NCBI RefSeq assembly: GCF_000384115.1
Contig: NZ_KB913029.1
Span: 654,907-718,906 of the forward strand
DNA: 64,000 nucleotides
From: Sporichthya polymorpha DSM 43042
GTDB taxonomy: Bacteria; Actinomycetota; Actinomycetes; Sporichthyales; Sporichthyaceae
Direction of reading: 5' to 3'
In this document: positions 37,125 through 60,456 of the stretch, one piece after another
Layout: every line of letters starts with the position of its first letter
Numbering within the stretch: position 1 is the stretch's first letter
The notes under the pieces: model-generated
What the model saw: only the letters and a program-made list of their open reading frames with translations
Told to the model about the DNA's origin: nothing
The model's database searches: none
Program-made: the position numbers and the translations under genes

Positions 37125-37778
37125 ATGAGCGGCGCACGAATGGCGGAACTCCTGTTCGACGAGGCCGATGCGATCAGCACTCGCGAGCGGCTGGTGATTT
37201 CCGCGCTGCAGGCCTTTTCCTCCACCGGCTACGACGGTGTGAGCGTCCGTGAGGTCGAACGGGCCTGCGGGGTCAACCGCGGTCTGATCGCCTACCACTT
37301 CGGATCGAAGGAAGAGCTGTGGCGGGCGTGCATCGACCTGCTGATGGCCAAGTTCCATGAAGAGATGACGAAGTATCGCGGCGTGCTGCGTGTCGTCTCT
37401 CCCGAGGAACGCGCCAAGGTCCTGCTCAAGATCTACGTGAGTTTCGCCAGCAAGCACCCGGAGTTCTTCCGCCTGCTGATCGTGCACGGCGCGGACGAGT
37501 CCAGCCGGATGGAATGGCTGGTCAAAGGTCTCAAGGAGACGCTCAACTTCTTCGGCGAGGTCACCGGATCCTCCTCCGACTCGGTGACCGCCGAGGAAGA
37601 GGCGATGGCCTGCTACCTGTTCCTCGGCGCGGCGTCGACCATTTTCGCCGTCCCCAGTCAGTGCCAGATGCTCTTCGGCGTCGACCCCCGCGACCCCGAG
37701 TTCATCGAACGCTACACCGACGTCGTGGCCTCCTTCGGCTTCTACGACCCCCGCCCCCTCGGAGGTAAACCGTCATGA
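37125..37778 (+). CDS. TetR-family transcriptional regulator
   Basis: 217 residues. HTH at ~35-65 (SVREVERACGVNRGLIAYHF). Its ATG at 37125 lies 18 bases after the direct-repeat promoter region. The IclR gene starts within its stop (ATGA), an unusual coupling of two regulators of different families in one operon. The C-terminal domain resembles TetR_C of AcrR-type proteins. Target unknown; autoregulation is likely. Confidence 0.92.
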   Translation: MSGARMAELLFDEADAISTRERLVISALQAFSSTGYDGVSVREVERACGVNRGLIAYHFGSKEELWRACIDLLMAKFHEEMTKYRGVLRVVSPEERAKVLLKIYVSFASKHPEFFRLLIVHGADESSRMEWLVKGLKETLNFFGEVTGSSSDSVTAEEEAMACYLFLGAASTIFAVPSQCQMLFGVDPRDPEFIERYTDVVASFGFYDPRPLGGKPS

Positions 37779-38512
37779 CTGCCACCACCGCCGTTGAGGA
37801 CTCGATGTCATCCGTGTCCAAGGCCCTGGTCATTCTGGAGGTCATGGCTCTCTCCGACGGCCGAGCCATCGGCGTCTCCGACCTCGCGATGGTCACCGAC
37901 ATGCCCAAGAGCACTGCACACCGCCTGTTGAAGGCGATGGAGCAGCGCGGGTTCGTCGGCCGGACCGGGTCGAAGTACCGGGTCGGCACCCGCTGCCTCC
38001 AGCTGAGTTCGGTGGCCCGCTGGTCCGAGTACGGGATCCTTCTGGAGCACGCCGCACCGGCCATGGAATGGCTCTTCGAGCGCACGGGGGAGACGGTCCA
38101 CCTGGCCGTGCTCGACGGGCCGGACGCGCTCTACCTGGAGAAGGTGAACGGGCGCGGCGGCTGCCGCATGCGGACCAAGGTCGGGATGCGCGTTGCCGCG
38201 AACACCACGGCCATCGGACGCGTCCTCCAGGTGTGCGCTGCAGAACGCGGGGAGCCGGCCCAATTGGGCCGGCAGTCCTGGGCTGCCGGCCTCCGGGCGA
38301 CCGGAGCATTGTCCTGCACTGACACCGTGCAGCCGGCCTTCGCCGGCGTCGCGGCGCCGGTGAGCCTGGTCGGCAGCGACCGGGCGGTGGCCGCCCTCTC
38401 TCTCGACGGCCCGGTGACGCGGTTCAAGCCGGACCAGCACGCCGGCCTGGTCCGGGAGGCGGCCGCCCGCCTGTCGCGTCGCCTGGGTCCCTACCTGGAG
38501 GGCACCGCCTGA
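37775..38512 (+). CDS. IclR-family transcriptional regulator
   Basis: 245 residues. Winged helix (VSDLAMVTDMPKSTAHRLLK) at about 36-56, then the IclR effector domain. A degenerate copy of its 3' part, covering the segment GALSCTDTVQPAFAG to RFKPDQ, lies 320 bases downstream (38623). It is followed by a strong hairpin terminator. Coupled to the TetR gene. May control the importer operon or the Rieske ferredoxin. Confidence 0.92.
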   Translation: MTATTAVEDSMSSVSKALVILEVMALSDGRAIGVSDLAMVTDMPKSTAHRLLKAMEQRGFVGRTGSKYRVGTRCLQLSSVARWSEYGILLEHAAPAMEWLFERTGETVHLAVLDGPDALYLEKVNGRGGCRMRTKVGMRVAANTTAIGRVLQVCAAERGEPAQLGRQSWAAGLRATGALSCTDTVQPAFAGVAAPVSLVGSDRAVAALSLDGPVTRFKPDQHAGLVREAAARLSRRLGPYLEGTA

Positions 38513-38539
38513 GCCGGCGTCCGCTGGACCACACGAGGA

Positions 38540-38575
38540 AATCCCCCTCCGCAGAACGCGGAGGGGGATTCTTTT
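38540..38575 (+). terminator. Rho-independent terminator of the TetR-IclR operon
   Basis: A 13-bp stem AATCCCCCTCCGC / GCGGAGGGGGATT with loop AGAAC, followed by CTTTT, 27 bases after the IclR stop. A near-copy sits at 38785, part of a duplicated block. Confidence 0.88.
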
Positions 38576-38622
38576 GTGTGTCCCGTGTCTGCTCGAGATC
38601 CATCGTGGACCGGCGGGCCAAC

Positions 38623-38752
38623 GGAGCACTGTCCTGCACCCGACACGGTGCAGCCGCCTTCGCGGGAGCCGCCACGGTGAGCCTGGTCGGCAGCGACCGG
38701 GCGGTGACCGCCCTCTCCCCCGACGGCCTCGTATCGCGGTTCAAGCCGGACC
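38623..38752 (+). repeat. Degenerate tandem copy of the IclR gene 3' end
   Basis: About 130 bases match 38303-38435 inside the IclR gene closely, with several small changes; in translation both encode GALSCT...SLVGSDRAV.ALS.DG..RFKPD. Together with the following hairpin (38785) this looks like a duplication of the IclR tail plus its terminator. The copy has no start codon context of its own and is probably not expressed as protein. Confidence 0.8.
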
Positions 38753-38784
38753 GTCGGCCGCCGGGAAGACCACGAAACGAAACA

Positions 38785-38817
38785 GAATCCCCCTCCGCGA
38801 CCCGCGGAGGGGGATTC
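38785..38817 (-). terminator. Hairpin terminator at the end of the importer operon
   Basis: A 14-bp stem GAATCCCCCTCCGC / GCGGAGGGGGATTC with a five-base loop. On the minus strand it is followed by a T-rich stretch (TGTTTCGTTT), so it fits termination of the binding-protein gene that ends at 38842. Nearly the same stem as at 38540. Confidence 0.75.
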
Positions 38818-38841
38818 TCGTGGTCCCTGCTGGCCGAGCCC

Positions 38842-40341
38842 TCAGTCCCCGATGCAGGTGATCTTGCTGCCCTGCGGAGCGGTCCAGCCGTCCGTACCGA
38901 GCTTGGCCACGCTGTAGCAGGGATTGATCGGGGTGGGCTTACCCGCCTGGTAGGTGAGCGGCGGCGTAAGTCCGCCCAGGGTTTCGTTCCTCAGCGACGT
39001 GACGCCCTTGTAGATCATCGCCGAGGTCACCGGTCCACTGCGCGCTTCGGTGGCGACCTTGGCGAGCGCGGCCTCGAAGAGCTTGCCCGCGATCCACCCG
39101 GAGATCGACGACTGGTCCATCGTCTGGCCCGGCGCGTAGCGCTTGGCCGCGTCCTGGAAAGCCTTCGCCGCCGGGAAGTCACTCACCATGAAGGGGACGG
39201 TGGAGGTGCCGAGGTAGATGGGCGCATTGCGCAGGGCTTCATCGCTCGAGGACTGCGCCCCGATCGCGAGCGGAACGGTGGAGAACGGAGGCTTGAAGCC
39301 GAGAGCGTTGCAGCTGCGGACCAGCCGCGAGAGCCCGGAGGCGTCGAGGAACGCGAACACCACCTGACTGTTGTCGGCCTTGAGCGCTTGGCATTCCGCG
39401 GTGTAGTCCGACTGCGTGAGCGACACGGCCTTGTTGAGGCCGGCCTCGACACCCGCGTCCTTCGCGATCTGTGCCCAGTTCTTACTGCTGAGGCCGCAGA
39501 TCGAGGCCTCGACGCAGTAGAGCAGGCCGGCCCGCTTGGCTCCGGCTGCCTGCGCCATCGTCTTGATGGAGCCGACGAGGCTCGGAATCGGCGATCCGCC
39601 TTGCGGGAACATGTAGGTGCTCTGCGTCCACTCCGGCGCGGTCATCTCGCCGCCCACGACGGGAATCTTCGCCTTCTCCGCGGCCGGGCGCATCGCCGCA
39701 CCCGTGATCGGCACCCCGGCGGCGACGATCGCGACGGCCTTCTTGTTGTTGACCAGTTCGTTGAAGTTCGACTGGACCCGGGTGGGGTCGGACGCGTCGT
39801 CCATCGTGTAGAGCACGATGGGATGGCACTGCACCCCGCCCCGGGCGTTGACGTCCTTGACCCACATCTGCAGACCGAGGCGCAACAGGCCGGTGGAGGC
39901 ACCGACGATGCCCGACGCGGCAAGGGTCTGTCCGATGACGATGGGCTCGAGTTGCTTGGTACAGGCGGCCGCGGTGGCCGACGCGGCGTTGGTGGACGTC
40001 CCGGCCGCCGGCTTGGTCTTACCGGTGTTCGCGCTGGTCGATCCGCTCGTCTGGGCCGTGTTCGTGGTCGCCGTCGTGCCGCCCCCCGGGGCGACCGCTC
40101 CCGGGACGGCGGCAGCAGCGTCCGGCGCCCCCACGACTGCGCCGGTCGCGTCCGGCGTCGTCGCCCCGACGGCGGCGTCGGACTCGCCGAGGGCGCCCAG
40201 GCCCGCTTCCTCGACCGAGACCACGCCGCCCTCGGCCTTGACGAGATCGGCCTCCGACTGGCGCGTGCCGCACCCGGCCAGGATCAGGGAGCCGCACACG
40301 ACCAGGGCGGCGATTCCCTTGCTTGACTGCAACTTCATCAT
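38842..40341 (-). CDS. ABC importer substrate-binding lipoprotein (LivK-type), copy 1
   Basis: 499 residues. Signal peptide with lipobox LAGC (Cys24), a long Ala/Thr/Gly-rich linker (~25-125), then a periplasmic-binding-protein (Peripla_BP_6) domain with NARGGVQCHPI and TMDDASDPTRVQSN. It would be lipid-anchored outside the membrane and hand ligand to the permease encoded upstream. GGGAG precedes the ATG. Differs clearly from copies 2 and 3 (54354, 55829), which are close to each other, so the ligands may differ. Confidence 0.9.
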   Translation of the reverse strand: MMKLQSSKGIAALVVCGSLILAGCGTRQSEADLVKAEGGVVSVEEAGLGALGESDAAVGATTPDATGAVVGAPDAAAAVPGAVAPGGGTTATTNTAQTSGSTSANTGKTKPAAGTSTNAASATAAACTKQLEPIVIGQTLAASGIVGASTGLLRLGLQMWVKDVNARGGVQCHPIVLYTMDDASDPTRVQSNFNELVNNKKAVAIVAAGVPITGAAMRPAAEKAKIPVVGGEMTAPEWTQSTYMFPQGGSPIPSLVGSIKTMAQAAGAKRAGLLYCVEASICGLSSKNWAQIAKDAGVEAGLNKAVSLTQSDYTAECQALKADNSQVVFAFLDASGLSRLVRSCNALGFKPPFSTVPLAIGAQSSSDEALRNAPIYLGTSTVPFMVSDFPAAKAFQDAAKRYAPGQTMDQSSISGWIAGKLFEAALAKVATEARSGPVTSAMIYKGVTSLRNETLGGLTPPLTYQAGKPTPINPCYSVAKLGTDGWTAPQGSKITCIGD

Positions 40342-40393
40342 GTCTGGTTGCTCCCTAGGAACGGATCGGCCACGCCCAGCGGAGTGGGACGGT

Positions 40394-42307
40394 TCAAGCG
40401 TTGCTCAGTTCACGCGGACGTTCGCCCAGTGCGATCCGTACCCCGGCCGGGCCCGCCTTGCGTTTGGCGTTCTTCACGGCACCCGTTGCGAGGAGCTTCT
40501 GCACGGCACCCTGGGAGTTGATCGCGGTGAAGATCGCGATCACGCCGAAGCTGATCTGGAGGGCGATGTTCGCGTCCGGGTTGCTGATGTAGTTGGGCAC
40601 GACGTAGAGCAGCACCGGTGCGACGATCGCGACCGTGATGGTGCGGCGCCCCGAGATGGCGAGCACGGCCAGCGCCACCAAGGACTGGATGTACACGAAG
40701 GAGTCCTGGTTGACCGAGCCGAACAGCGAGGCGAGCAACGCCCCACTGACTCCGGCCAGGAACCCGGAAATGCAGAAGACCAGTACTCGAGCCACGTTGA
40801 CGGACAGGCCGAGGGTGACCAAGGCCGTCGGGGAATCCGACAGCCCGCGCAGGAGCCTCCCCATCCGCGACCGTTCGAGCAGGAGGACGAGCGCAACCGC
40901 CGCCACCGCGAAGGCGAGTAGCAGGTAGTAGTACTTCTTGTCGTCGTCGAAGCCGCTGGGACGGCCCGATTCCAGAGCGCCGAAGCCGAACATGAAGCTT
41001 TTGCCGTAGCCGTACTGCGCGACGAAGATGCCGAAGCCCAGCGTGGCCAGCGCCAGATACAGACTGGAGAGTCGGATGGCGGGCACCGCGATGATCAGGG
41101 CGGGCACGACGCAGACCAGGCCGCCGATCAAGACGGCGAGCCCGAACGGCACTCCCCGTCCCAGCATGTGTGCGAACCCGCAGGCTCCGATCGCCGCAAA
41201 GGCGAAGTGGCACAGGGAGATCTGGCCCGAGGTCCGCACCAGCAGATGCAGCGAGACGAAGAGGATGACCTGCGTCAGCGCCTGGTTGTAGGCAGGGAGG
41301 TGGGTCCCCACGAAGCCGAAGTGGGGAATGCCGAGGATGAAGGCGCCGCCGGCGGCATAGGCGAGCAGCCGGGTGCGGGTCCGAATCGCCAGCGGCGCCG
41401 GAGCCGGGACAGACTTGACGACCTGGCCGACCTCGACGAGCTTGTGACGCGGGATCACGAGCAGCCCGATGAACAGCACGATGAACGGCACGGCCAGGTC
41501 GAGGCCCTGGAAGTACTCGTGGGTGCCAACGGCCTTGCTGCCCACCTTCTGTGCCACGCCCACAACCAGGCCGCCCACGAAGGCCAGCGGCAGGCTCTGG
41601 AAACGCCCGATGGTGGCGGCCCCGAACGCCTGGACGACCAAGAGGGTCAGGACGTTGACGTCGAGTTGGGCCTGCGTCGAGGCGAAAAGGATGCCCGAGA
41701 CGGAGGCGAAGCACGACCCGATCACCCAGGCGCTTCGACGAACACGGGCCGGAGCCTGACCGGTCATGTCCAAGAGCTGCGGGTCGTTGACGACCCCGCG
41801 CATCGCGAGCCCGAGTCGGGTCCGCTTGAAGAACAAGGCCAGCCCTACGGCGGACGTCACACCGATGCCGGCAATGATCAGCTGCTCCACCGTGATCCCG
41901 ACCTGCGCCACCGTGAACGCGGTGTCGCGAGGGAGGAACGGGGCGAAGTACTTGCCCTGATCGGTGAAGATCAGGCTGATCGTCGAGCGAATCGCCACCA
42001 GCAGACCGACGGTGCCGACGATCTTGTAGACCGTAGGAACCGGGGACAGCGCGACGGCCAGACGTTCCAGAAGCAGCCCGGCGAGCGGGGCGAACACGAG
42101 CACGACCAGAGCCGCCGCCACCGGCCAGGGCAGACCACGCTCCTGGCGGAGCTCGAAGAATGCATAGGCGCTCGCGGCGCAGACAGCGCCGTGGCTGATG
42201 TTGAACACGCCAGAGGTCTTGTACGTCAGCACCAGGCCCATGGCGCAGATGCCGTAGACCGATCCCGTGACGATCCCGATGACGATGAAAGGAGTCCACT
42301 CGCTCAC
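40394..42307 (-). CDS. Fused LivH-LivM branched-chain-type ABC permease, copy 1
   Basis: 637 residues from GTG 42307, overlapping the previous stop (GTGA). The N-terminal half (~1-290) is LivH-like (GLVLTYKTSGVFNISHGAV) and the C-terminal half (~320-600) LivM-like (RTSGQISLCHFAFAAIGA; LATLGFGIFVAQYGYG). Many membrane helices. LivH and LivM are usually separate genes, and the fusion is repeated at 50103. It should form the channel energised by LivG/LivF (44727, 45551). HAAT systems import amino acids but also aromatic acids and other small acids. Confidence 0.9.
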   Translation of the reverse strand: MSEWTPFIVIGIVTGSVYGICAMGLVLTYKTSGVFNISHGAVCAASAYAFFELRQERGLPWPVAAALVVLVFAPLAGLLLERLAVALSPVPTVYKIVGTVGLLVAIRSTISLIFTDQGKYFAPFLPRDTAFTVAQVGITVEQLIIAGIGVTSAVGLALFFKRTRLGLAMRGVVNDPQLLDMTGQAPARVRRSAWVIGSCFASVSGILFASTQAQLDVNVLTLLVVQAFGAATIGRFQSLPLAFVGGLVVGVAQKVGSKAVGTHEYFQGLDLAVPFIVLFIGLLVIPRHKLVEVGQVVKSVPAPAPLAIRTRTRLLAYAAGGAFILGIPHFGFVGTHLPAYNQALTQVILFVSLHLLVRTSGQISLCHFAFAAIGACGFAHMLGRGVPFGLAVLIGGLVCVVPALIIAVPAIRLSSLYLALATLGFGIFVAQYGYGKSFMFGFGALESGRPSGFDDDKKYYYLLLAFAVAAVALVLLLERSRMGRLLRGLSDSPTALVTLGLSVNVARVLVFCISGFLAGVSGALLASLFGSVNQDSFVYIQSLVALAVLAISGRRTITVAIVAPVLLYVVPNYISNPDANIALQISFGVIAIFTAINSQGAVQKLLATGAVKNAKRKAGPAGVRIALGERPRELSNA

Positions 42308-42810
42308 GGCCGGCACACTCCGCATCGGCGCAGTCCGGCCTCGGCCAGCGCGCTCTCCGACACCGGCCGCACGTCCTTACCGGCGATGAGCAGACACCCG
42401 GCGCGGTGGGCCCGCGTCATCGCGGACCCGACGAGGAGCTCGTTGCCGAGGTCCTCCACGGAGACCGCCCGAACCGGATAGGCGAGGTACACCCGCGGCA
42501 GGAGCATCGCCCGGGCGGCCCGTACCTGACGGAAACCGGCCGCCAGCCAGACCATGGGTCCGAGGCCGGACACAGCGAGCGAGGCAATCCCGACCACGAG
42601 CCAGATCTCCTGGTCACGCAGGGCAGACTCGCCGCTGGCCATCCACCAACAGACCCCAATGCCGATCAGGCCCAGAGCGGCAGGGATCGCGGCCCTGCGC
42701 CGGTCCACGGCAGTCCAGGGCGACGGCTCGTCGATCCTCGCCACCGGCAACACGGCCTGGGGGCGGCGGCGGGCGACCATGGCTCGCGCCGGAGCCGCGG
42801 TTGCGCTCAT
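42304..42810 (-). CDS. Small two-helix membrane protein of the importer module, paralogue A
   Basis: 168 residues: basic N-terminus, two helices (about 45-60 and 70-92), then a cytoplasmic-type domain ending ALAEAGLRRCGVCRP. The paralogue at 52034 ends with the same kind of CG.C pair and shares the segment ...RAHR..CLL..GK..RPV. No known family recognised. ATGA overlap with the gene upstream and GTGA with the permease; the arrangement points to a permease accessory subunit. Redox or metal function of the two cysteines is possible. Confidence 0.72.
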   Translation of the reverse strand: MSATAAPARAMVARRRPQAVLPVARIDEPSPWTAVDRRRAAIPAALGLIGIGVCWWMASGESALRDQEIWLVVGIASLAVSGLGPMVWLAAGFRQVRAARAMLLPRVYLAYPVRAVSVEDLGNELLVGSAMTRAHRAGCLLIAGKDVRPVSESALAEAGLRRCGVCRP

Positions 42811-43127
42811 GAGCGGTGACGCGCGCCGGCGCCGGCCTCAGCGCGACCGCCGGAACGATCCACATCGAGGCGGTTCAGATGACCGTTGAGCTCCCTCAAC
42901 TCGCGCCATTCGTCGCGTAGGTCGGCGGACAGCCACAGCGCGGCGCCCAGCCCGAGCAGAAAGATGCCCAGCAATCCGGCGGAGATGACGTAGGGAATCT
43001 GCCCGGCGACGTGCGAGGTGCCCGAGGTCCCCACCCAGCCGAGGAGAAGCACGAGGAGGCCGGCGACCACGCTCAGGACCGCGCCAGAGCGGTCCCACTG
43101 GGTCCGGACGTACTTGATCAGGTCCAC
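42807..43127 (-). CDS. Small two-helix membrane protein of the importer module, paralogue B
   Basis: 106 residues from GTG 43127, chosen because the paralogue at 52574 starts at the same aligned place (VDLIKYVRTQWDR versus MEILTLLRAQWDR). Two helices (about 14-32 and 42-63), then LWLSADLRDEWREL and a basic tail. It overlaps the end of the secreted-protein gene. Always next to the secreted protein and the CG.C protein in both modules, suggesting one complex. Confidence 0.72.
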   Translation of the reverse strand: MDLIKYVRTQWDRSGAVLSVVAGLLVLLLGWVGTSGTSHVAGQIPYVISAGLLGIFLLGLGAALWLSADLRDEWRELRELNGHLNRLDVDRSGGRAEAGAGARHRS

Positions 43128-44518
43128 AGCCGTCGCACTCCGATCAGTCCCAGGGCCCAAGCGGCCAACAAGGTGACGACACCGGCGGCAGCCAGCGCCA
43201 GATAGATGTCAAGGCCGCCGGCGCCCTTGAGCGCAGTGCCGACTCGCACGAATTCAGCGGCAACCGTTTCCTCGCCGGCCCCGGAGACTCCTGGCACTCC
43301 GGAACCAGCGACGGGCACACCACCGGCGACTCCTGCCGTGGTTCCCGGCAGCACTCCCAGGCCTGCTGCGTCCACGCCCGCCACTCCGGTCCCGGGGGCC
43401 GCCGTCCCGCCCTCCGCACCGCTCGGCTGGATGCCCGTGGGCACCTCCGATCCGAGCGGAGTGAGGTCGACGTTCGCCACCGTCAGGCCGGTGGTCATGG
43501 TGACCGGGGTCGGGCCCGAGTAGTACTGATTCTCCGGTGGGGCCGGGATGTCGAACCTGAAGTTCGCGACCGGCGCGATGATGCCGTTGCTGGTGATCTC
43601 GGCGGCCTGGTAGGTGAACGTGACGCCGGCTGCCTTCAAGCCATCGATCACCGGCTGCGCCGGGACCGTGTACTTCTGCGTCTCCTGGCCAGGTGCCGTC
43701 ACCACGAAGTAGCCGTCCTGAATCCCGAGCTGCGGGGCGACGAACGTCGTCCCCCCGGCCGGGAACGGGAACGGCGGTGCAGGGATCGGCGGCACGTTGG
43801 GCACGCCCGGCACCGGGATCGGGATCGGGATCGCCTCCGGCGAGCTCTTCGGCACGGTGAAAGACAGCCCGGGCACCGAGATCAAACCGATGCTGAGTGA
43901 ACTGGAGCGCGTGAGCTTGCCCGTGGTTCCGTCTGCCGTCGTCTCGGCCCGCGAGCGGACCCCGGACAGCTTGAAAACCCCGGACAGGTCCACGGCCTTG
44001 TACTCGGCCTCGGAGGTCGAGGTCACCGACCCGTCCTCGGCCTCGTCCACGCGCGCGTCGGCGCTGCCGCCGAAGGCGGTGGTACCGGCGACACCCGACG
44101 CAATCGTGGAGGTCGTACCGCTCTCGGCGCGCAGCGTGATGCCGGGGTACGACCGAACGACCGGCTTCTGTCCAGCGCCCGAGGAGGCGATGAAGGGGTA
44201 GGGCGGCACCGGAAAACCCGTGATGGCCGATCCCAGACCCGGCAGGGTCGGGACGACGTCGCCGAAGTAGGGGAACGAGGCATTGGCATCCCGGGTCGAC
44301 AGACTCGTCTGGTGCGCATCAGCTTCCGGCCCGATCGCCTGCACGACAAAACCCACGGGAATCGAAGGATTGCGCAGCGTGAAGTCGATGCCGACCGCCT
44401 TTGCGTAGGCGTCGTAACTCGTCTCCGCCCCCACGGGGCTGGCGAGCATCAGCGACGACGCGGCGACCCCTCCGAGCACGCCGAGCAGGGGCAATGCCCG
44501 AACCCACCGTCGAGACAT
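43118..44518 (-). CDS. Secreted, C-terminally anchored protein of the importer module, copy 1
   Basis: 466 residues from ATG 44518. Sec signal peptide (about 1-31, ending VGA) and a single C-terminal helix (about 434-460) followed by a basic tail, so it should be exported and held in the membrane. The central region is beta-rich with a Pro-rich stretch (IPIPIPVPGVPNVPPIPAPP). It shares ADGTTGKLTRSSSLSI with its paralogue at 52927. Not a family I recognise. Being first in an importer operon, it may capture a hydrophobic ligand or link the wall to the importer. Confidence 0.78.
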   Translation of the reverse strand: MSRRWVRALPLLGVLGGVAASSLMLASPVGAETSYDAYAKAVGIDFTLRNPSIPVGFVVQAIGPEADAHQTSLSTRDANASFPYFGDVVPTLPGLGSAITGFPVPPYPFIASSGAGQKPVVRSYPGITLRAESGTTSTIASGVAGTTAFGGSADARVDEAEDGSVTSTSEAEYKAVDLSGVFKLSGVRSRAETTADGTTGKLTRSSSLSIGLISVPGLSFTVPKSSPEAIPIPIPVPGVPNVPPIPAPPFPFPAGGTTFVAPQLGIQDGYFVVTAPGQETQKYTVPAQPVIDGLKAAGVTFTYQAAEITSNGIIAPVANFRFDIPAPPENQYYSGPTPVTMTTGLTVANVDLTPLGSEVPTGIQPSGAEGGTAAPGTGVAGVDAAGLGVLPGTTAGVAGGVPVAGSGVPGVSGAGEETVAAEFVRVGTALKGAGGLDIYLALAAAGVVTLLAAWALGLIGVRRLWT

Positions 44519-44647
44519 ACGTCCCTCCGCATCCGTGAGGCTGAGCGCCCTGGCGGCGCTGTGACACTCACCATGGCGACCGGGCCGACCAGATGACAGA
44601 CAAGTTCCGGATCGCTGAACGCGGCCTCTCACGCCGGTTCACATCCC

Positions 44648-44662
44648 GGAACAGCCTGTTCT
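44648..44662. promoter_or_regulatory. Inverted repeat in the divergent livG / secreted-protein region
   Basis: GGAACAGCCTGTTCT, with GAACA/TGTTC as perfect arms, in the 208-base gap between the two importer transcription units. 13 of 15 bases match the repeat at 14124 before an acyl-CoA ligase. A candidate operator shared by import and activation genes. Confidence 0.45.
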
Positions 44663-44726
44663 GCCGCGCCGCTGGGCAGGCCACACTCCGGGCACAGAAC
44701 GGGCCAGCCAACACACGGAGGACGTC

Positions 44727-45550
44727 GTGAGTGACGCGAGCGCCGACGGCCTGGTGGTCGAGAACATCGTCGTCAAGTACGGCGGGCACACCGCGGTCAA
44801 CCGGATCTCGCTGTTCGCGCCCCTGGGCGGCCTGGTCGGCCTGATCGGGCCGAACGGGGCCGGGAAGACGACCACCTTCAACGCCTGCACGGGCCTGGTC
44901 CGGCCCGCGGGCGGCACCGTGAACCTCTTCGGCCAGGACGTGACGCACGCACCGCCGCAGCTGCGGGCCCAACGGGGGCTGGGGCGGACCTTTCAGCGCA
45001 TGGAGCTCTTCGATTCCCTCAGCGTGCGCGAGAACGTGGCCCTTGGGCGTGAGGCCGGGCTGGCCGGGAGCCTGCCCTGGCGGCACCTACGCGGAGCCCG
45101 CAGCGACGGGACGAAGGTCCGCCAGGCGACCGAAGCTGCTCTTGCCCAGTGCGGCATCGAGTCCCTCGCCACCCGCCGCCCCGCCGACCTGTCCACCGGA
45201 CAGCGCCGCCTCGTCGAACTCGCCCGCTGCATCGCCGGCGGGTTCCGGATGATGCTGCTCGACGAACCCAGCTCCGGCCTCGACAAGACCGAGACCGTCC
45301 TGTTCGGCAAGATCCTGCGCTCGCTCATCCAGGACAACGGCGTCGGGATCCTTTTGGTCGAACACGACATGGCGCTGGTCATGAGCGTCTGCGACTACCT
45401 CTACGTCATGGACTTCGGCGAGCCGATCTTCCAGGGCACGCCCGCCGAGGTCAGAGAGAGCGAGATCGTCCGCGCCGCCTACCTCGGTAGCGAGGCCGTC
45501 GAGGACGCCGTCGACTCCCACGACCACAGCAACCACAGGGCCGGTGTCTG

Positions 45551-45551
<1 letters not shown>
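44727..45551 (+). CDS. livG: ABC importer ATP-binding protein LivG
   Basis: 274 residues from GTG 44727, six bases after GGAGG. Walker A GPNGAGKT, signature LSTGQRRLVELAR (with LSTGQ in place of LSGGQ), Walker B MMLLDEPSSGLD, and switch His in LVEHDM. One of two ATPases that drive the LivHM-type permeases. Divergent from module 1; only one livG/livF pair serves two fused permeases and three binding proteins in the window. Confidence 0.93.
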
Positions 45552-46252
<701 letters not shown>

Positions 46253-46263: not shown

Positions 46264-47868
46264 ATGTCAACGAGCCCTCAGGCCCATCCCGATCCGCTGC
46301 ATTGGCAGGGGCCTGAGTCCACCGCGGCCTGGACCACCGTCAACGTCAGCGAAGCACTGCCTGAGGTCCCCACTCCGTTGACCTGGACGTTTTTCGCCCG
46401 AGGTATCGACGAGGCGTTCTTCGGAGGATTCCACGCGCTCGGGGCCTTGTCGCGGGTCGAGCTGAGGGCTCCGCGGTCACCCGACCAGAGCAGCTGCGCC
46501 ATCTTCCACGGCCGTCCGGCCCTCAACGTCGACCTGTTCCGCGAGATGGCCGCCCGGATGCCGATGACCTCCGGCGACGCCATGGAGACGGCGCTCTTCG
46601 GCGGAGTCAAGGTCGGCGGGGCCGGCGAGAACACCCTGCGCCGCTACCCGGTCGTCGCGGTCAAGCTGCCGAGCGCGATGCTCACGGCACCGCAGCGCCT
46701 CCGCGCGGATCACACCGACGTCATCCGGTGGCGGACCGACTCGCTCACCCGCCTGGAGCCGCGGACCGCCCGCGCCGTTCTGTCCGAGGCGTGGGACCAC
46801 TTCCGCCACTCGTTCTTCCTGCACTCTCTCGGGACGATGCTGGCCCAGGGCCAGTTCGAACAGCTCACCCTGGCCGCAGCCCGGGTGGGCGCGCCTGGCC
46901 TCGAGCGGGATCTCGTCACCGGCTACGGCTCGCTCGTGGAGCTTTCGCTCGTCGGCGACCTGTGGCGGGCCGCCCGGGGCGAGCTCCCGGTGGAGGAGTT
47001 CCTCGCCTCGCACGGGTACCACGGGCCTTTCGAGTCCGAGCTCTCCAGCCGCTCGTGGCGCGAGGACCCCGCTCCGGTGCAGACGCTGTTGGCGCGCTAC
47101 CGGAGCATGACGGAGGATGAGGGACCCCAGGCGACGACGGAGCGCGCCCGGGCGATTCGGCTGGCGGCCGAGGCCCGCCTGCTGGACGCCACCCCCCGCC
47201 TGCGCCGCGCGCAGGTGAAGGCCACCCTACGGATGGCCCGCACGTTCGTGCCGTTGCGCGAGCTCGGCAAGTCCTCCTTCCTGCACGCGGTGGACGTGGC
47301 TCGCGCGGCCGCGCGCGTGCTCGGCTCCGACCTGTGCAGCCGGGGAATGCTGACCGATCCGGATGACGTGTTCTTCCTGACCATGACCGAGGCCCTCGGC
47401 GAGCTGCCGGCCTCCACGCAGGACACCGTGACTTTGCGGCGCGGCCGCCGTAAGGAGCACGCGCAGCTCCAGATCGAGGAGGTGTGGCGAGGCATGCCGA
47501 CGGCCGCACCTCAGGTCGAGGTCACGCGGGCGGCGGAGACCGAGCTCTGCGGTCTCGCCGTCAGCGGCGGCGTGGTGGACGGGGTCGCTGTGGTCGTGAC
47601 GGATCCCTCGCTCGTCGAGGACCTCGGCCCGGACGCGGTCCTTGTGTGCCAAGCCACCGACCCGAGCTGGGCAACGCTCTTCCTGCAGTGCGTGGCGGTG
47701 GTCATCGACGTCGGTGGCCCGCTGAGTCACGGCGCGATCGTCGCCCGGGAGCTGGGCATCCCCTGCGTCATCAACACACGTGACGCGGTCCGCCATTGCC
47801 GCACGGGCGACCGGATCCATGTGAACGGCACCACCGGCGTCGTACGCCTCGCCCGACAGCACGCCTGA
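46264..47868 (+). CDS. PEP-utilising-enzyme-type protein with phosphohistidine swivel domain, no ATP-grasp
   Basis: 534 residues. The C-terminal ~80 residues form the swivel domain with GGPLSHGAIVARELGIP; His489 is the expected phosphohistidine. The N-terminal and middle parts resemble the linker/helical region of PEP synthase or rifampin phosphotransferase. The ATP-grasp domain (PPDK_N) that should phosphorylate the His is missing, as in split enzymes such as the phenylphosphate synthase subunits. A partner carrying that domain is not in the window. The position after livF suggests it acts on an imported or early intermediate. Confidence 0.8.
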   Translation: MSTSPQAHPDPLHWQGPESTAAWTTVNVSEALPEVPTPLTWTFFARGIDEAFFGGFHALGALSRVELRAPRSPDQSSCAIFHGRPALNVDLFREMAARMPMTSGDAMETALFGGVKVGGAGENTLRRYPVVAVKLPSAMLTAPQRLRADHTDVIRWRTDSLTRLEPRTARAVLSEAWDHFRHSFFLHSLGTMLAQGQFEQLTLAAARVGAPGLERDLVTGYGSLVELSLVGDLWRAARGELPVEEFLASHGYHGPFESELSSRSWREDPAPVQTLLARYRSMTEDEGPQATTERARAIRLAAEARLLDATPRLRRAQVKATLRMARTFVPLRELGKSSFLHAVDVARAAARVLGSDLCSRGMLTDPDDVFFLTMTEALGELPASTQDTVTLRRGRRKEHAQLQIEEVWRGMPTAAPQVEVTRAAETELCGLAVSGGVVDGVAVVVTDPSLVEDLGPDAVLVCQATDPSWATLFLQCVAVVIDVGGPLSHGAIVARELGIPCVINTRDAVRHCRTGDRIHVNGTTGVVRLARQHA

Positions 47869-47888: not shown

Positions 47889-48674
47889 ATGGGACAGCTC
47901 GACGGCAAGGTCGCTCTCGTGACCGGCGGCAGTCGCGGCATCGGCCGGACCATCGCGCAGGCTTACCTCGACGAGGGCGCGCGTGTGGTCATCAGCAGCC
48001 GGTCCGAGGCCAACGGCAAGGAGGCCCTGCACAGCTTCGACGCCGGCGATCGAGCGACGTTTCTCGCGGGCGACATGACGGTCCGGGAGAGCGTCGACCA
48101 GGTCGTGGACGGCACGGTCGCCCACTTCGGAGCCCTGGACATCCTCGTCAACAACGCGGGCGGCATCCAGACCCTGGGCACCGTCTGGGATCTGTCCGAC
48201 GACGGGTGGATGGACACGATCAATCTCAATCTCCACGCCACGTTCTGGGCCACCCGCCGGGCGCTTCCGCACATGATGGCCAAGGGGTGGGGGCGAGTGC
48301 TGAACATCTCCTCGCTCGAGGGCAAGGTGGGCCTGCCGATGATCAGCGCCTACTGCGCCGCCAAACACGCGATCCACGGCTTCACCAAGGCGGTGGCCAA
48401 GGAGGTCGGTCGCGCCGGCGTGACCGTCAACTGCCTCTGCCCCGGCTACATTCCGGAGACCGACCTGGCGCGCAACATCGGTGCGGACATCGCTCCCATG
48501 CTCGGCCTGGGCTCGGTGGATGACCTCTCCGCGATGTTCGCCCAGCAGTCCGCGACCGGCCGCACCCCGACCTTGGCCGACTGCGTCGGGCCCGCCGTGC
48601 TGCTCGCCTCCGACGCCGGGGCCTCGATCACCGGCGTCACGCTGTCGATCGACGGAGGTATCGCGCAGTCATGA
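47889..48674 (+). CDS. Short-chain dehydrogenase/reductase
   Basis: 261 residues from ATG 47889, after GGAGGAA. TGGSRGIGRT cofactor loop, NNAGG, active-site Ser in ISSLEG and YCAAK. C-terminal TLSIDGGIAQS is the usual FabG end. Coupled to the next gene (ATGA). Likely an alcohol or hydroxyacyl dehydrogenase of the pathway. Confidence 0.9.
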   Translation: MGQLDGKVALVTGGSRGIGRTIAQAYLDEGARVVISSRSEANGKEALHSFDAGDRATFLAGDMTVRESVDQVVDGTVAHFGALDILVNNAGGIQTLGTVWDLSDDGWMDTINLNLHATFWATRRALPHMMAKGWGRVLNISSLEGKVGLPMISAYCAAKHAIHGFTKAVAKEVGRAGVTVNCLCPGYIPETDLARNIGADIAPMLGLGSVDDLSAMFAQQSATGRTPTLADCVGPAVLLASDAGASITGVTLSIDGGIAQS

Positions 48675-49720
48675 GTGGTGTGCTGGCGAACCCGTACGGC
48701 ATCTCACCGGCGATGGACTACAACCAGTCGCCACCGCGCCTGGACGTTCCCTTGTGGAGCGAGAACTACATCTTCCAGGGCAGCGATCCGGAGAAGGGCA
48801 TCTTCTTCTACCACTTGATCGGGCGCATGGCGGGCAACCCGCACTACTGGCGCTCGGTCTTCCAGTGCACCCTGCCGAGCGGCGATCTTCTGTCCTGGAA
48901 GAACTACGGCAAGGACCTCAGCACCACCGGGCCTGTCGCCGGGGCGTTCCGCGCCACCTGCATCGAGCCGCTCAAACGATGGCGGATCCAGTACGACGGG
49001 GTCGCCGCGCGCACGACCCGCGAGGAGAACCGGACGAGTTTCCTACCGGCCACGGCACAGCCCGAGCCCGTCGAGTTCGACCTGCTCTGGGACGCCCGCA
49101 CGCCGATCTGGAGCATCGGTGGCGAGTCGGCCGAGGAGGCCGAGGACCACTCGATCTGGCACATGCACCTGGAGCAGTCCGGAGTGGTCCGTGGCCACCT
49201 GCGCTGGCGCGGGGAGACGATCACTTTCTCCGGCCCGGGCTACCGGGACCACAGCATGGGGCCCCGGGAACTCTCGAAGGGGATCGGGCACACCTGGCTG
49301 CACGCCGGCTTCCCCGAGAGTCGACGGCACTTCGGCCTGATCACTCTGTCCTTCGCCGACGACGCCCGCCGGCACATCAACTCCTACAGCGTCCTCGACG
49401 GCGAACTCCGCGACGAGAAGACCTTGGAGTTCCCGGAGTGGCCCGAAGGATTGGTTCTCTACGAGCCTGCCGGCTTCACCGTGACGACGGGCGCCGGCGG
49501 CAACGACGTCACGTTCACCGGTGAGCTGCTCGATCCCAGCTTCTACTTCACGGTCGCCGCACCCTCGGAGATCATCCTCGGCTACGAATCAGGGTCCACG
49601 GAGCCGCTGTGGTCCTGCCGTGAGGTGCTGTGCCGATTCGACCTCGACGGCGAGGTCGGCTACGGGTTCCTGGAGATCAGCCGACGTCACCGCACCGTCA
49701 CTGACCCAGCGCCTGCCTGA
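48671..49720 (+). CDS. CrtC/AttH-type lipocalin-like protein (DUF7064-like), tentative
   Basis: 349 residues, beta-rich, with two repeated lipocalin-like halves. The second carries FSGPGYRDHSMGPRELSKG and HTWLHAGF, resembling carotenoid/hydroxyneurosporene or kievitone hydratase-like proteins (now DUF7064/7065) seen in actinobacterial steroid clusters. It may hydrate a double bond or bind a hydrophobic intermediate. Coupled to the SDR before it. Its 3' end overlaps the convergent SnoaL-like gene by 23 bases. Confidence 0.6.
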   Translation: MSGVLANPYGISPAMDYNQSPPRLDVPLWSENYIFQGSDPEKGIFFYHLIGRMAGNPHYWRSVFQCTLPSGDLLSWKNYGKDLSTTGPVAGAFRATCIEPLKRWRIQYDGVAARTTREENRTSFLPATAQPEPVEFDLLWDARTPIWSIGGESAEEAEDHSIWHMHLEQSGVVRGHLRWRGETITFSGPGYRDHSMGPRELSKGIGHTWLHAGFPESRRHFGLITLSFADDARRHINSYSVLDGELRDEKTLEFPEWPEGLVLYEPAGFTVTTGAGGNDVTFTGELLDPSFYFTVAAPSEIILGYESGSTEPLWSCREVLCRFDLDGEVGYGFLEISRRHRTVTDPAPA

Positions 49721-50102
49721 TCATGGACTGGGCGTCGAAGTAGAAGACCCGGACCGAGGCGATCTTTCCGTCGCGCAGCGTCGACTCCTCGGCGAGCAGC
49801 GTCTCCTGACCCGTGTTCAGATCCGGAATCCGGATGATGCCGAGAACCCGGTCACCGTCCGCGACCAGGTACTGGACCTTCAGTCCGCTGACGTCGAGGT
49901 ACTTCACCACGACGGAGAACATGTCCACGAAGGCGCCCTTGCCGACGTAATCACCGCCGTAGGGCAGGAACGATGGCTCGTGGACGACGACGTCGTCATG
50001 CATCATCGCGAGCAGGGCCTCGAGATCGCCTCGGATCCCCGCCTCGTAGAACGCCGCGACGGTGGCCCGGTTGGTCTCGGTCACGCTGGTGACGTCCGTC
50101 AT
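49698..50102 (-). CDS. SnoaL-like (NTF2-fold) protein
   Basis: 134 residues. NTF2 fold marks: AAFYEAGIRGDLEALLAMM at the N-terminus, VVVHEPSFLPYGGDYVGKGAF and LRDGKIASVRVFYFD. Such proteins act as small hydrolases, isomerases or ligand-binders. Its ATG directly follows the permease TAG (TAGATG), making it the last gene of importer module 2. Possibly an isomerase for the imported compound. Confidence 0.85.
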   Translation of the reverse strand: MTDVTSVTETNRATVAAFYEAGIRGDLEALLAMMHDDVVVHEPSFLPYGGDYVGKGAFVDMFSVVVKYLDVSGLKVQYLVADGDRVLGIIRIPDLNTGQETLLAEESTLRDGKIASVRVFYFDAQSMIRQALGQ

Positions 50103-52037
50103 CTAGACCCCTACCTTCTCTCGAGCGGCTTCGGGTACGGCTGCGGCCTTCCTGGCCCGGACCATCTCGATGCGGTCCTGGGTCGGGCCGTTGAGCTTGT
50201 GCCGGGATCTGACGTTGAGCCGGCCGATGAGGGCGGCGACGCCGCCCTGGGAGGCCGCGGCGGCCAGGATGGCGAAGAGCCCGAACCCGAACTGCAGCAG
50301 ATAGTTGAGTTTGGCGTCGTCGATGTAGTTGGGCACAACGAACAGCAGGATCGGGCCGACGATCGCGGAGGTCACCAGGCGTCGGCCGGAGATGGCCAGG
50401 ACGGCGAGCAGCAGCAGCGACTGGAAGTAGCCGAAGCTCTCCTGGCTGACCGAGCCGAACAGCGAGGCGAAGGTGGCGCCGCTGATGCCGGCCAGGAAAC
50501 CGGAGATGCAGAAGACGATGACGCGCGACATGTTGACGTTGAGACCGAGGGTCACCAGGCCGGTTGGAGAGTCACCGAGACCGCGCAGCAGCCGGCCGAG
50601 GCGGGAACTCTCGATCAGCACGACCAGCCCGATCGCCGCGACGGCGATGCCGAGCAGGAGGTAGTAGAAGCGGGTGTCGGACTCCCACCCGGCCGGGCGT
50701 TGCGTGTCCAGGCTACCGATGCCGAACATGAAGTTCTTGGTGTACCCGAACTGGGCCACGAAGATGCCGAAGCCCAGGGTCGCCAGACCCAGGTAGAGCC
50801 CGGAGAGCCGGATGGCCGGGATCGCGATGAACGCCGCGACCGGGATCACCACCAGACCGCCGATGAGGACCGCGACGCCCCAGGGCAGGCCACCGTCGAG
50901 CGAGTGCCCGAAGCCGGCGGCGCCGATCGCCGCGAAGGCCACGTGACACAGCGAGATCTGCCCGGAGGTTCGGACCAGAAGACCCAGAGAGAGGAAGAGG
51001 ACGACCTGACTGGCGGCCTGGGTCCAGGCGATGAGGTGGGCGCCCGCGAAGTGAGGGACCATCAGACTGACCGCGGCGATCACGCCATAGGTCGTCATCC
51101 GGCTCCGCTTGGAGAATGGGCTGGGCGGCAGCGGACGCATCTTGATCGGGCGGCCGACCTCGACCAGCTTGTGGCGCGGCACCACCAGCAGGGTGATGAA
51201 CAGAATGATGAACGGGACGTTGAGATCCAGGCCCTGCAGGTCCGGGTAGGTCGCGACCTCCTTGGCGACGAGCTTCTGCAGGACCCCGACCACGATGCCG
51301 CCGACGAAAGCCATCGGCAGGGACGTGAACCGGGCCAGCGCCGCCGCTCCGAAGGCCTGTACCACCAGCAGCGACAGCACGTTGATGTCGAGTTGCTGCT
51401 GGGTGGAGGCGAACAGGACACCGGAGACCGCGGTCAACGTGGACCCGATCATCCAGGCGTTGCGCCGCACCCGTGCCGGAGAGGCACCGGTCATGTCGAG
51501 CAGGGAGGGATCGTCGACGACGCCGCGCATGTTCAGTCCCGCCCGAGTGCGGGTGAAGAACAGGAACAACCCCACGGCCAGCGCGAGCCCGAACGCCATG
51601 TCGGCGAGGTTGTCGTACGTGACCGACACGTTGTCGACGGCGAAAGCCTCGTCCTGCGGCAGGAACGTCTCGAAGACGAAGGTGGACTGCGGCCCGTAGA
51701 TGAGGCCGACCCCGGCCTGGATGCAGACGAACACCCCGACGGTGGCGACGATCTTGTAGGTGACGGTGACGCCGGCGAGCGCCGCCGCCAGTCGTTCGAA
51801 CAACAGCCCGGACAACGGACCGAAGATCAGGACTGCGATGACCGCGGCCACCGGCCAGGGCAGGCCCTGTTCCTGACGGAGCTCGTAGAAGATGTACGCC
51901 CCCACCGCGCTCATGGCACCGTGCGCCACGTTGAACACGCCCGAGGTCTTGTAGGTGAGGACCAGACCCATCGCTGAGATGCCGTAGATGGCTCCGGCAG
52001 TGAGTCCGAAGATGAGGTAGGGCAGGTACTCGCTCAT
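50103..52037 (-). CDS. Fused LivH-LivM branched-chain-type ABC permease, copy 2
   Basis: 644 residues from ATG 52037, overlapping the stop upstream (ATGA). Same two-part layout as copy 1: LivH-like (GLVLTYKTSGVFNVAHGAMS) and LivM-like (RTSGQISLCHVAFAAIGAAG; LATLGFGIFVAQFGY). The copies stay clearly alike along their whole length, so they arose by duplication of the entire module. It probably shares the LivG/LivF ATPases. Confidence 0.9.
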   Translation of the reverse strand: MSEYLPYLIFGLTAGAIYGISAMGLVLTYKTSGVFNVAHGAMSAVGAYIFYELRQEQGLPWPVAAVIAVLIFGPLSGLLFERLAAALAGVTVTYKIVATVGVFVCIQAGVGLIYGPQSTFVFETFLPQDEAFAVDNVSVTYDNLADMAFGLALAVGLFLFFTRTRAGLNMRGVVDDPSLLDMTGASPARVRRNAWMIGSTLTAVSGVLFASTQQQLDINVLSLLVVQAFGAAALARFTSLPMAFVGGIVVGVLQKLVAKEVATYPDLQGLDLNVPFIILFITLLVVPRHKLVEVGRPIKMRPLPPSPFSKRSRMTTYGVIAAVSLMVPHFAGAHLIAWTQAASQVVLFLSLGLLVRTSGQISLCHVAFAAIGAAGFGHSLDGGLPWGVAVLIGGLVVIPVAAFIAIPAIRLSGLYLGLATLGFGIFVAQFGYTKNFMFGIGSLDTQRPAGWESDTRFYYLLLGIAVAAIGLVVLIESSRLGRLLRGLGDSPTGLVTLGLNVNMSRVIVFCISGFLAGISGATFASLFGSVSQESFGYFQSLLLLAVLAISGRRLVTSAIVGPILLFVVPNYIDDAKLNYLLQFGFGLFAILAAAASQGGVAALIGRLNVRSRHKLNGPTQDRIEMVRARKAAAVPEAAREKVGV

Positions 52038-52570
52038 GACCCGCACGCCCCACATCCGGCCAGCCCGAGGGCGGCCATGTCGGCTGCGGTGACGGGGCGC
52101 AGGTTCTTCTTGCCCCGCGCCAGCAGGCAGTGCGGACGGTGCGCGCGACCCATCCCGGTTGCCGTGACCAACTCGTCCGCCGCGAGGCTGACCGCAGGGC
52201 GTACCGAAGCCTGCGCTTCGGACAGCCAGGGTCCGAGGTACAGCGCGACGGCCCGCTCCATGCCCGTGACCTGGCGGAACGCGCAGATCAGCCAGTACAC
52301 CCCGCCGAGGACGACGACGCCGGTCGAAGCGATGCTGCCGACCAGCCATGGAACCTGGTCGTCGTAGGTCAGCTTTCCGGCCCCGACGTACCAGCACACG
52401 ACCATGCCGACGAGGCCGATTCCGATCAGCACCCCGGTGCCCAGCGCGTGGCTGCGTTGCCACGGCTCGGCGCGGTCGGGCACCGCGAACAGCAGGGGCT
52501 CGGGCTGCGGGGCGGCGGGTTCACTGCGGCGCCGCGCCCGGGCGGGCACGCTCACCTGATGCGTCGTCAC
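52034..52570 (-). CDS. Small two-helix membrane protein, paralogue A of module 2
   Basis: 178 residues; paralogue of 42304. Basic N-terminus, two helices (about 48-62 and 75-96), GMGRAHRPHCLLARGKKNLRPV and C-terminal CGACGS. No recognised family. Three bases after the preceding gene; ATGA with the permease. The conserved terminal CG.C pair and RAHR..CLL segment are the best clues to function. Confidence 0.72.
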   Translation of the reverse strand: MTTHQVSVPARARRRSEPAAPQPEPLLFAVPDRAEPWQRSHALGTGVLIGIGLVGMVVCWYVGAGKLTYDDQVPWLVGSIASTGVVVLGGVYWLICAFRQVTGMERAVALYLGPWLSEAQASVRPAVSLAADELVTATGMGRAHRPHCLLARGKKNLRPVTAADMAALGLAGCGACGS

Positions 52571-52573
52571 CGA

Positions 52574-52939
52574 TCAGGCCCTGCGGTGGGCAGATGACCC
52601 AGCCGGACTCAGGCGGTCAACCTCCACGCCCGCCCCGGCGATGGGAGGGAGGGCCGGCAGAGGGCGGCCGGACCCCGCCAGTTCCTGCAGGGTGGTCCGC
52701 ACCAGCCGCAGCTCGCGCCACTGGTCACGCAGGTCGGCCGAGACCCACAGCACGGAGCCCATCGCAACCAGCACGATCCCGCTGACCCCGGCCGAGGTGA
52801 TGTACGGCATCTGCTTCACGACCGCCTCGGCGCCGCTCACCCCGACCCACCCCACCACCAGGACGATCGCGCCGGCGACGGTGAGCGCTACCGCCAGCGC
52901 CCGGTCCCACTGTGCACGCAGCAGTGTCAGGATTTCCAT
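52574..52939 (-). CDS. Small two-helix membrane protein, paralogue B of module 2
   Basis: 121 residues; paralogue of 42807. MEILTLLRAQWDR start, two helices (about 14-32 and 43-63), LWVSADLRDQWREL, then a Pro-rich tail. Its ATG lies within the end of the secreted-protein gene (13-base overlap). Same gene order as module 1. Confidence 0.72.
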   Translation of the reverse strand: MEILTLLRAQWDRALAVALTVAGAIVLVVGWVGVSGAEAVVKQMPYITSAGVSGIVLVAMGSVLWVSADLRDQWRELRLVRTTLQELAGSGRPLPALPPIAGAGVEVDRLSPAGSSAHRRA

Positions 52940-54363
52940 GGCGAACGCACTCCCACCAGGCTCAGAGCCATCATGGACAACAGGGCCGCGACGGCAATGG
53001 CGGCGAACAAGAGATAGAGATTGGTCGAATCGCTGAAGTTGATTGCAGCGCCGGCTGGTACGAACGTCGCGGTGGGGATCCCGGTCCCCACGCCCGCACC
53101 CACAGCGGCTGGCGCTGCGCCGACCGCAGCGCCACCGGGCACCAGCCCCCCGATCCCGGCGGCATCGAGACTCGGCAGGACTCCACCCGGCGCGGCGCCG
53201 GCCGCCCCGGTCCCCACGCTGCCGGTACCGGCCGCTGCGGAGTCAGTCACGCCGGCCGTCGCGTCATAGGTCGCGGGGTTCAGGGTCACGTTGGCCAGGA
53301 CCTTGCCCACGGTGTAGGTGATCGGCACGGGACCGGAGAAGTAGGGATTGTCCGGGAAGCCCGGTGCCTCGTAGGTGAAGTTGAAGGAGGCGCCTTCAAT
53401 GCCGGTCGGCGTCTCCGTGGCCGGCTGATACGTGATGCCGTAGCCGGCCTGCTTGAACGCGTCCAGCACCGAGGAAGCCGGGACCGCGTACTGGTTGTCG
53501 CCGAACCCCGGCAACGTCATCGAGAAGTACCCGTCCTTGAACCCGATGTCCGGGGCCGGCAGAGTCTGCCCCCCGAACGGCAGCGGGATCGGCGGGAAGG
53601 GAGTGTCCGGCAACTGCGGCACCCCCGGAATCGGAACCGGCACCGGAGCCGAGCCCGGTGTCGTCTTCGGCACCGCGATCGCCAACCCCGGAACGTGGAT
53701 CCGCGCAATGCTCAGCGAAGACGAGCGCGTGAGCTTGCCGGTGGTCCCGTCCGCCAGCACCACCGCGGTCGAATGCACCCCGGACATGCGGACCGTTCCA
53801 CCGATCACGATGCCGTCCAGCGCGGAGTCCGCGAAGGCGCGGACATCACCCGAGGGCGCCACGGAGATCCGGGAATCCGCGGTCCCGCCTCCGGACGGGC
53901 TCACCACCGACGCCGAACCGATGTTCGACTCCTGCCCACTCTCGGCGTGCAACCTGATCCCCGGATACGCCACATCCGCCGGTGCGTCACCTGCCCCCGT
54001 AGCGGCCTGCAACGGGTATCCCGGCGAGGGCAGGCCGTACAAGCCCGCCGCAATCCCCGGCAAACCGGGTACGACCGGGCCGAGGTAGGGGAACGACGCT
54101 TCGGCATCGGACTGCCCGCTCGAGGTCAACCGGGACGACGCCTCCGGGCCGATGCCTTCGATCACGACGCCCAGCGGAAAGCTCTGGTTGCGCGCGGTGG
54201 CATTGACCGCGATGCCCTGCGCGTAGGCGTCGAACGCGGCGGAGGGCGCGAAGTCGGCTTTCGCGGGGCTGATGCCGATGATCGTGTACCCCGCGCCGAC
54301 GGTCAGCGCGACCAAGGATGTGGCGGCTGTGGCACGCCGGCGTGACGAGCGCACTAGAGGCAT
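52927..54363 (-). CDS. Secreted, C-terminally anchored protein, copy 2
   Basis: 478 residues. Signal peptide (about 8-34, cleavage near AKA) and a C-terminal helix (about 445-470) with a basic end. Shares with copy 1 the ADGTTGKLTRSSSLSI segment, the Pro-rich GVPQLPDTPFPPIP-type stretch and the overall length. Its ATG is embedded in the last codons of the binding protein upstream (PQCL, stop at 54354), so the two are translated together. Unknown family. Confidence 0.78.
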   Translation of the reverse strand: MPLVRSSRRRATAATSLVALTVGAGYTIIGISPAKADFAPSAAFDAYAQGIAVNATARNQSFPLGVVIEGIGPEASSRLTSSGQSDAEASFPYLGPVVPGLPGIAAGLYGLPSPGYPLQAATGAGDAPADVAYPGIRLHAESGQESNIGSASVVSPSGGGTADSRISVAPSGDVRAFADSALDGIVIGGTVRMSGVHSTAVVLADGTTGKLTRSSSLSIARIHVPGLAIAVPKTTPGSAPVPVPIPGVPQLPDTPFPPIPLPFGGQTLPAPDIGFKDGYFSMTLPGFGDNQYAVPASSVLDAFKQAGYGITYQPATETPTGIEGASFNFTYEAPGFPDNPYFSGPVPITYTVGKVLANVTLNPATYDATAGVTDSAAAGTGSVGTGAAGAAPGGVLPSLDAAGIGGLVPGGAAVGAAPAAVGAGVGTGIPTATFVPAGAAINFSDSTNLYLLFAAIAVAALLSMMALSLVGVRSPWKS

Positions 54364-57349: not shown

Positions 57350-57584
57350 GTCGCGGATGCTACGCAGGCTTGGCAGCAGCCAATTTGGTCTCGTTCCGGC
57401 CCCCGGAAACCTCGTCGCGCAATTGATGCCGGGCCCAGGAGCGCGGAGCGGGGCCGGTCAGCATCGGTGCTACGTGAGATGGACCCCGTCTTCCGGTCCG
57501 CCCTCGCGCATCCGGGTCATCCCCAAAACCGAGTTTGATCATGCCCTCGATGACATCAAGTTCCCCGTCATCACGCGCAACTGG

Positions 57585-57627: not shown

Positions 57628-57689
57628 GTCGGGCACTTCGTCCCGACTGGTTGTGAGCGCGCCCAGCGCGTGTTGGGTGGCCGTGAGCG

Positions 57690-60407: not shown

Positions 60408-60456
60408 ACGTGTGCTCCTCGGGAGGTTGAGACTGAAGGCGGGCCGGTCGAACCGA

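Follow-up and report, generated by a model that had tools for sequence, protein, structure and literature searches.

Importers of the HAAT type, represented by LivJ/K-LivHMGF and UrtABCDE (PF02653, PF13458 and PF00005), are built from a binding lipoprotein, two permease domains and two ATPases. CouPSTU of Rhodopseudomonas palustris belongs to the ABC importers with a HAAT-like composition, and we know of no counterparts in it of the three proteins, here named S, B and A, that are described below. CouPSTU functions in the uptake of lignin aromatics (PMC3610893) and, as an importer of an aromatic carbon source, is one of the systems to which the present modules are likened. In Mycobacterium tuberculosis, Mce lipid import involves the accessory protein LucA (PMC5487216). 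LucA and the Mce-associated membrane proteins are additional membrane proteins that assist an actinobacterial ABC-type lipid importer and may serve as a functional analogy only, the Mce transporter family being different from that of the HAAT modules. No description of a set combining S, B and A with an importer was found in the open-licence literature searched.

In this study, a 64,000-nt stretch of the genome of Sporichthya polymorpha DSM 43042 (the window; contig NZ_KB913029.1, positions 654,907 to 718,906) was analysed, and the features of its two importer modules are listed in Table 1. Module 1 is a HAAT-type ABC importer (LivK/LivHM/LivGF). LivHM1 contained two BPD_transp_2 stretches (Pfam; E 5e-51, 173.9 bits against a cut-off of 26.8), LivK1 matched Peripla_BP_6 (Pfam; E 3e-43, 149 bits against a cut-off of 31.7), and both ATPases were present as LivG1, with BCA_ABC_TP_C, and LivF1. 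It shares the binding lipoprotein, the two permease domains and the two ATPases with the described HAAT importers, but differs from them in that LivH and LivM are fused, that it includes three further membrane proteins, S, B and A, and that the scores of its proteins fall far short of the curated cut-offs set for the NCBIfam equivalogs LivH, LivM, LivK and Urt. The importer core is an ordinary HAAT system, and none of the three companions belongs to a Pfam or NCBIfam family.

Table 1. Importer genes and companion genes of modules 1 and 2 (window coordinates)
Feature	Position	Strand	Description
S1	43118-44518	minus	Secreted companion; 466 aa; 45% identity to S2
B1	42807-43127	minus	Two-TM hairpin; 106 aa; QWDR...QIPY.IS.GL...SADLRDEW
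A1	42304-42810	minus	Two-TM hairpin with H135-x3-C139 ... C163-x2-C166; 168 aa; C-terminus ...RRCGVCRP
LivHM1	40394-42325	minus	Fused LivH-LivM permease; 643 aa; own-genome search and BPD_transp_2
LivK1	38842-40341	minus	Solute-binding lipoprotein; 499 aa; lipobox LAGCGTR read directly
LivG1	44727-45551	plus	ABC ATPase, divergent from S1; ABC_tran and BCA_ABC_TP_C
LivF1	45551-46252	plus	ABC ATPase; ABC_tran E 4e-31
S2	52927-54363	minus	45% identity to S1
B2	52574-52939	minus	50% identity to B1
A2	52034-52570	minus	HRPHC...CGAC; 39% identity to A1
LivHM2	50103-52055	minus	Own-genome search
LivK2a	55829-57349	minus	Module 2
Second LivK-like gene of module 2	54354-55829		Follows LivK2a

The genes of module 1 are ordered S-B-A-LivHM-LivK, with LivG-LivF divergent and just upstream of S1, beyond the range given in the original prediction. 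Both the coordinates and this order, including the terminal CG.C of A, agreed with the original prediction, which had also described all five genes as coupled. S1 and B1 overlap by 10 nt, B1 and A1 by 4 nt, and A1 and LivHM1 by 22 nt; LivK1 follows LivHM1 after a gap of 52 nt, so coupling in the strict sense applies to S-B-A-LivHM alone. A promoter scan of the gap between S1 and LivG1 (44519-44726) found nothing. At the other side of the module, a partial copy (85 nt, 88% identity) of the 3' end of an IclR-type gene (37775-38512) lay about 317 bp downstream of the original (window 38294-38818). Two copies of a GC hairpin, perfect or nearly so (AATCCCCCTCCGC...GCGGAGGGGGATT), were seen between the 3' end of this gene and LivK1; the hairpin motif had no other occurrence within the window. 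Module 1 is adjoined by genes for a PEP-mobile-domain protein and a DUF7064/7065-like protein (46264-47868 and 48671-49720). Counterparts of the two (36% identity with E 3e-90, and E 3e-6, respectively) were found beside the module at locus L152 of an Acidimicrobiia MAG, and this recurrence possibly marks an enzyme partner conserved within one subtype of importer.

A second module lies within the same window at 50103-57349, and no ATPase gene was detected near it in the region 48001-61000. The modules are part of a larger family in the S. polymorpha genome (5.5 Mb, one contig, 99.5% complete), in which 80 BPD_transp_2 matches, an unusually large expansion for 5.5 Mb, corresponded to 40 LivH/LivM permease places. 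Gene content was determined for each pair in the stretch around it, with genes called by a simple codon model; the A gene at locus L083, which the caller had overlooked, was added by direct reading. S, B and A were all present at 23 of the 40 pairs, some of them at 6 and none at 11. At least 4 of the 23 complete sets, module 2 among them, had no ATPase gene in the stretch examined, and such sets may use the ATPase of another set. In a maximum-likelihood tree of LivH, the 23 permeases with complete sets, together with one from a partial set, formed a single supported group (99/95), and all 11 permeases without companions fell outside it. The complete sets are therefore restricted to one clade of permeases. 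Within the clade, the permease at locus L111 was accompanied by S without B or A.

Linkage in this genome was nearly complete. All 23 S matches, all 25 A matches and 32 of the 34 B matches lay within 7 kb of a LivH/LivM pair; the remaining two B matches were in stretches that also carry Liv genes, and none of the S or A matches was found away from a permease. Two arrangements were observed, S-B-A-HM-K, with S upstream of B, and K-B-A-HM-G-F-S, with S downstream of the ATPases. Because S is seen at either end of the operon, it changes place and yet keeps its linkage.

The association extends beyond this species. Four other members of the family were searched, and each of them contained S (13-32 matches); among the 35 more distant genomes of the same search, S was present in only 2. 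The non-Sporichthya genomes counted had 1-5 S matches each. Scanning of GTDB genomes with the B profile gave 43 loci carrying organism names, from Sporichthya, Frankiaceae/Frankiales MAGs, Streptomyces, Actinophytocola, Haloechinothrix, Nocardioides and Acidimicrobiia, and one from a MAG labelled Acidobacteria. LivHM was directly downstream of B in 40 of the 43, which are all the loci that could be tested, the contig ending 2-462 bp past B in the other 3. Genes overlapped or touched in 33 of 35 loci for S-B, 32 of 34 for A-HM and 27 of 38 for B-A. Given the second copy in the window, the 23 sets in the genome and the same order across Actinomycetota, the module set is far beyond chance.

A B-like match was obtained in 28 of 296 Actinomycetota genomes, and LivK, permease or ATPase genes accompanied the B-like gene in 19 of 20 flanked loci, the 20th ending at a contig edge. 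In these distant loci, the hairpin protein adjoins importers in which LivH and LivM are often separate or LivM is fused to an ATPase, and S homologues were recognisable in 6 of them. It had been proposed that the companions go together with the LivHM fusion. That they form a constant component of an importer module is borne out; since LivH and LivM are often separate in distant loci, the tie is to a group of HAAT importers and not to the fusion. Occurrence of the companions independently of importers, named beforehand as the observation that would speak against such a module, was searched for in the S. polymorpha genome and in the others and was hardly found. At loci L208, L210, L216 and L218, the zinc-knuckle hairpin protein adjoins a secreted protein of another family (e.g. 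AYYWESQQSQPVTD...) instead of S, and at L200-L203, S stands alongside a hairpin protein without the knuckle.

In Sporichthyaceae, the high number of copies could allow passenger genes to spread, and the companions might then be hitch-hikers amplified with the importer and without a functional tie to it. This explanation is hardly credible, as single-copy sets in the same order occur in distant genera, motif residues are invariant in A proteins that are otherwise 21-36% identical, and S stays linked while moving to the opposite end of the operon; together these observations argue for selection for the combination.

S1 consists of a signal peptide, a beta-rich domain (residues 34-355), a disordered Ala/Pro/Gly-rich tether (358-435), a TM helix (435-465) and a short basic tail. 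In the AlphaFold model, pLDDT was mostly above 90 over residues 34-355. Most S proteins have a recognisable signal peptide, and the Ala/Pro/Gly-rich tether is roughly 60-130 residues long. Searches with the S model gave no trustworthy PDB match. Outer-membrane beta-barrels were at the top of the Foldseek and VIA-align lists, with TM-scores of about 0.1-0.2, Z of at most 6.0 and rmsd of 5-12; these scores are within the range stated to be common for unrelated models, and the likeness to porins was dropped as structural evidence. The original prediction had suggested that the three companions form an outer funnel or a device spanning the wall. This is not directly supported: B and A, being short membrane hairpins that expose little beyond the membrane, cannot bridge the wall. 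For S by itself, a wall-spanning channel or funnel for a hydrophobic ligand is very unlikely: its long antiparallel strands, the barrels among its top matches, the length of its tether and a ligand that is probably hydrophobic would fit such a role, but the match scores are of the low kind given above and the hosts include Streptomyces and Nocardioides, for which, to our knowledge, no outer membrane is known. On its tether, S could reach into the cell wall. In a mirror-tree comparison of 20 modules, the distances of S correlated most with those of LivK (partial r 0.51), a weak correlation from few and saturated distances, which may reflect the shared saturation of fast-evolving proteins.

B has two TM helices followed by the conserved SADLRDEW stretch. 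The model of A1 (pLDDT 85) shows two helices, the second of them long, and then a small beta domain. Alignment of 39 A proteins revealed that, besides the start Met, only H135, C139, C163 and C166 (A1 numbering) are invariant, with G144 and K145 nearly so; in all 39, the motif has the spacing H-x3-C-x(17-24)-C-x2-C. Four invariant His/Cys ligands with conserved spacing are what is expected of a zinc-binding site, and this H-C-C-C knuckle probably holds zinc. The mean net charge past TM2 of A is +3.1, which suggests a cytosolic C-terminus, and the motif is thus probably cytosolic. The Ada metal-binding domain has the spacing H/C-x3-C ... C-x2-C. A resembles both that domain (PF02805) and DUF6233 (PF19746) in this spacing and in its ...RPC..C-P ending, but differs from them in that its motif sits on a membrane hairpin, and the matches were sub-threshold only (DUF6233 in 8 of 39 A proteins, best E 0.003; Ada_Zn_binding in 1 of 39, E 0.046, its cut-off not being reached). 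A holin-family match of A1 (E 0.0025) was rejected, being below the cut-off and absent from other members, and a search of the viral library found nothing. Structural matches to the A model were set aside as generic helical hairpins, with no trustworthy PDB match. The knuckle is missing from A in 2 of the 23 own-genome sets (L079 and L105), and the hairpin proteins of L200-L203, L206 and L219 likewise lack it; the zinc motif is therefore not essential to every such importer. Natural variants that could show the roles of the parts are L079 and L105, in which A has no knuckle, L111, with S but neither B nor A, and L200-L203, in which S accompanies a knuckle-less hairpin.

Comparison of the B and A profiles gave a probability of 96.7 and E 4e-10 over the hairpin. 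Moreover, single proteins in distant genomes join a B-type hairpin (E 2e-19) to an A-type motif (E 6e-24), and H, C, C and C are intact in all 13 of these, which were chosen for having the motif. Together, these findings show that B and A go back to a single ancestor. The simplest reading would be that one hairpin-plus-knuckle ancestor was duplicated, after which B lost the knuckle and the hairpin of A diverged. At L088 (6303-7208), a single 301-aa reading frame joins B to A in a natural fusion, a hint that the two act together.

The 111 proteins flanking 21 modules of the S. polymorpha genome belonged most often to the TetR proteins, short-chain dehydrogenases, enoyl-CoA hydratases, acyl-CoA dehydrogenases, luciferase-like monooxygenases, aldehyde dehydrogenases, AMP-ligases, P450s and thiolases. 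Such families typically make up the CoA-dependent pathways that degrade hydrophobic carbon skeletons. Because the modules lie among such genes, a hydrophobic acid is our guess for the cargo. A hydrophobic ligand is plausible from this neighbourhood, and the imported compound is probably a carbon source of hydrophobic, carboxylate-like character.

The frequency of TetR genes as neighbours bears on another explanation, that S, B and A are a separate, co-transcribed envelope or sensing unit that is dispensable for transport and in which the knuckle of A reports the status of the ligand or importer to the cytosol. Such a unit would agree with a hairpin carrying a probably cytosolic metal-type knuckle, with an extracellular S and with the occurrence of the hairpin protein beside more than one type of secreted neighbour. 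Nevertheless, we regard it as unlikely, as a search for output domains, whether DNA-binding, kinase or other, found none and there is one set per permease instead of a few shared sensors; one companion set per permease suggests a stoichiometric partner.

The reading that we prefer, and consider fairly probable as a whole, is that of an actinobacterial-clade HAAT importer with S, B and A as three extra subunits. Their status as subunits is well supported by linkage, although linkage is no proof of a physical complex. We infer the physical association, the topology of A and S, the binding of zinc, the role of S and the nature of the cargo, and hold the single mechanistic steps with clearly less confidence than the subunit reading. 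In the proposed mechanism, the LivK lipoprotein and S would operate outside the cell, S being a folded beta domain on a long flexible tether with one TM helix. Close to the membrane, S most likely captures the ligand, or aids LivK in capturing it or handing it over. B and A, as paralogous two-TM hairpins, most likely pack beside the fused LivHM. The probably zinc-holding H-C-C-C knuckle of A would lie on the cytosolic side, close to the ATPases; its task there would be to stabilise, gate or regulate the complex, or to provide a docking site for an enzyme. A more far-reaching version is put forward tentatively, as possible: S, B and A would be required subunits of an undescribed class of Actinomycetota ABC importers, in which the zinc-knuckle hairpin controls the permease or the ATPases and the tethered beta protein delivers ligand to the lipoprotein, and Sporichthyaceae would have multiplied this class into more than 20 parallel uptake systems for hydrophobic carbon sources.

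Three protein families for which Pfam and NCBIfam have no model are tied, across Actinomycetota, to one of the commonest importer types, and the companions are probably unrecognised parts of an uptake machine common to many soil actinobacteria. Should they be subunits, the five-part HAAT importer of the textbooks lacks components that a large group of soil bacteria has, and an importer subunit with a metal-type knuckle in the cytosol would be an unusual point of control. These proposals can be tested directly, given the motif, the natural fusion of B with A and the number of paralogous sets within one genome. The modules also flag candidate uptake genes for hydrophobic carbon sources, the transport of which is mostly unknown.
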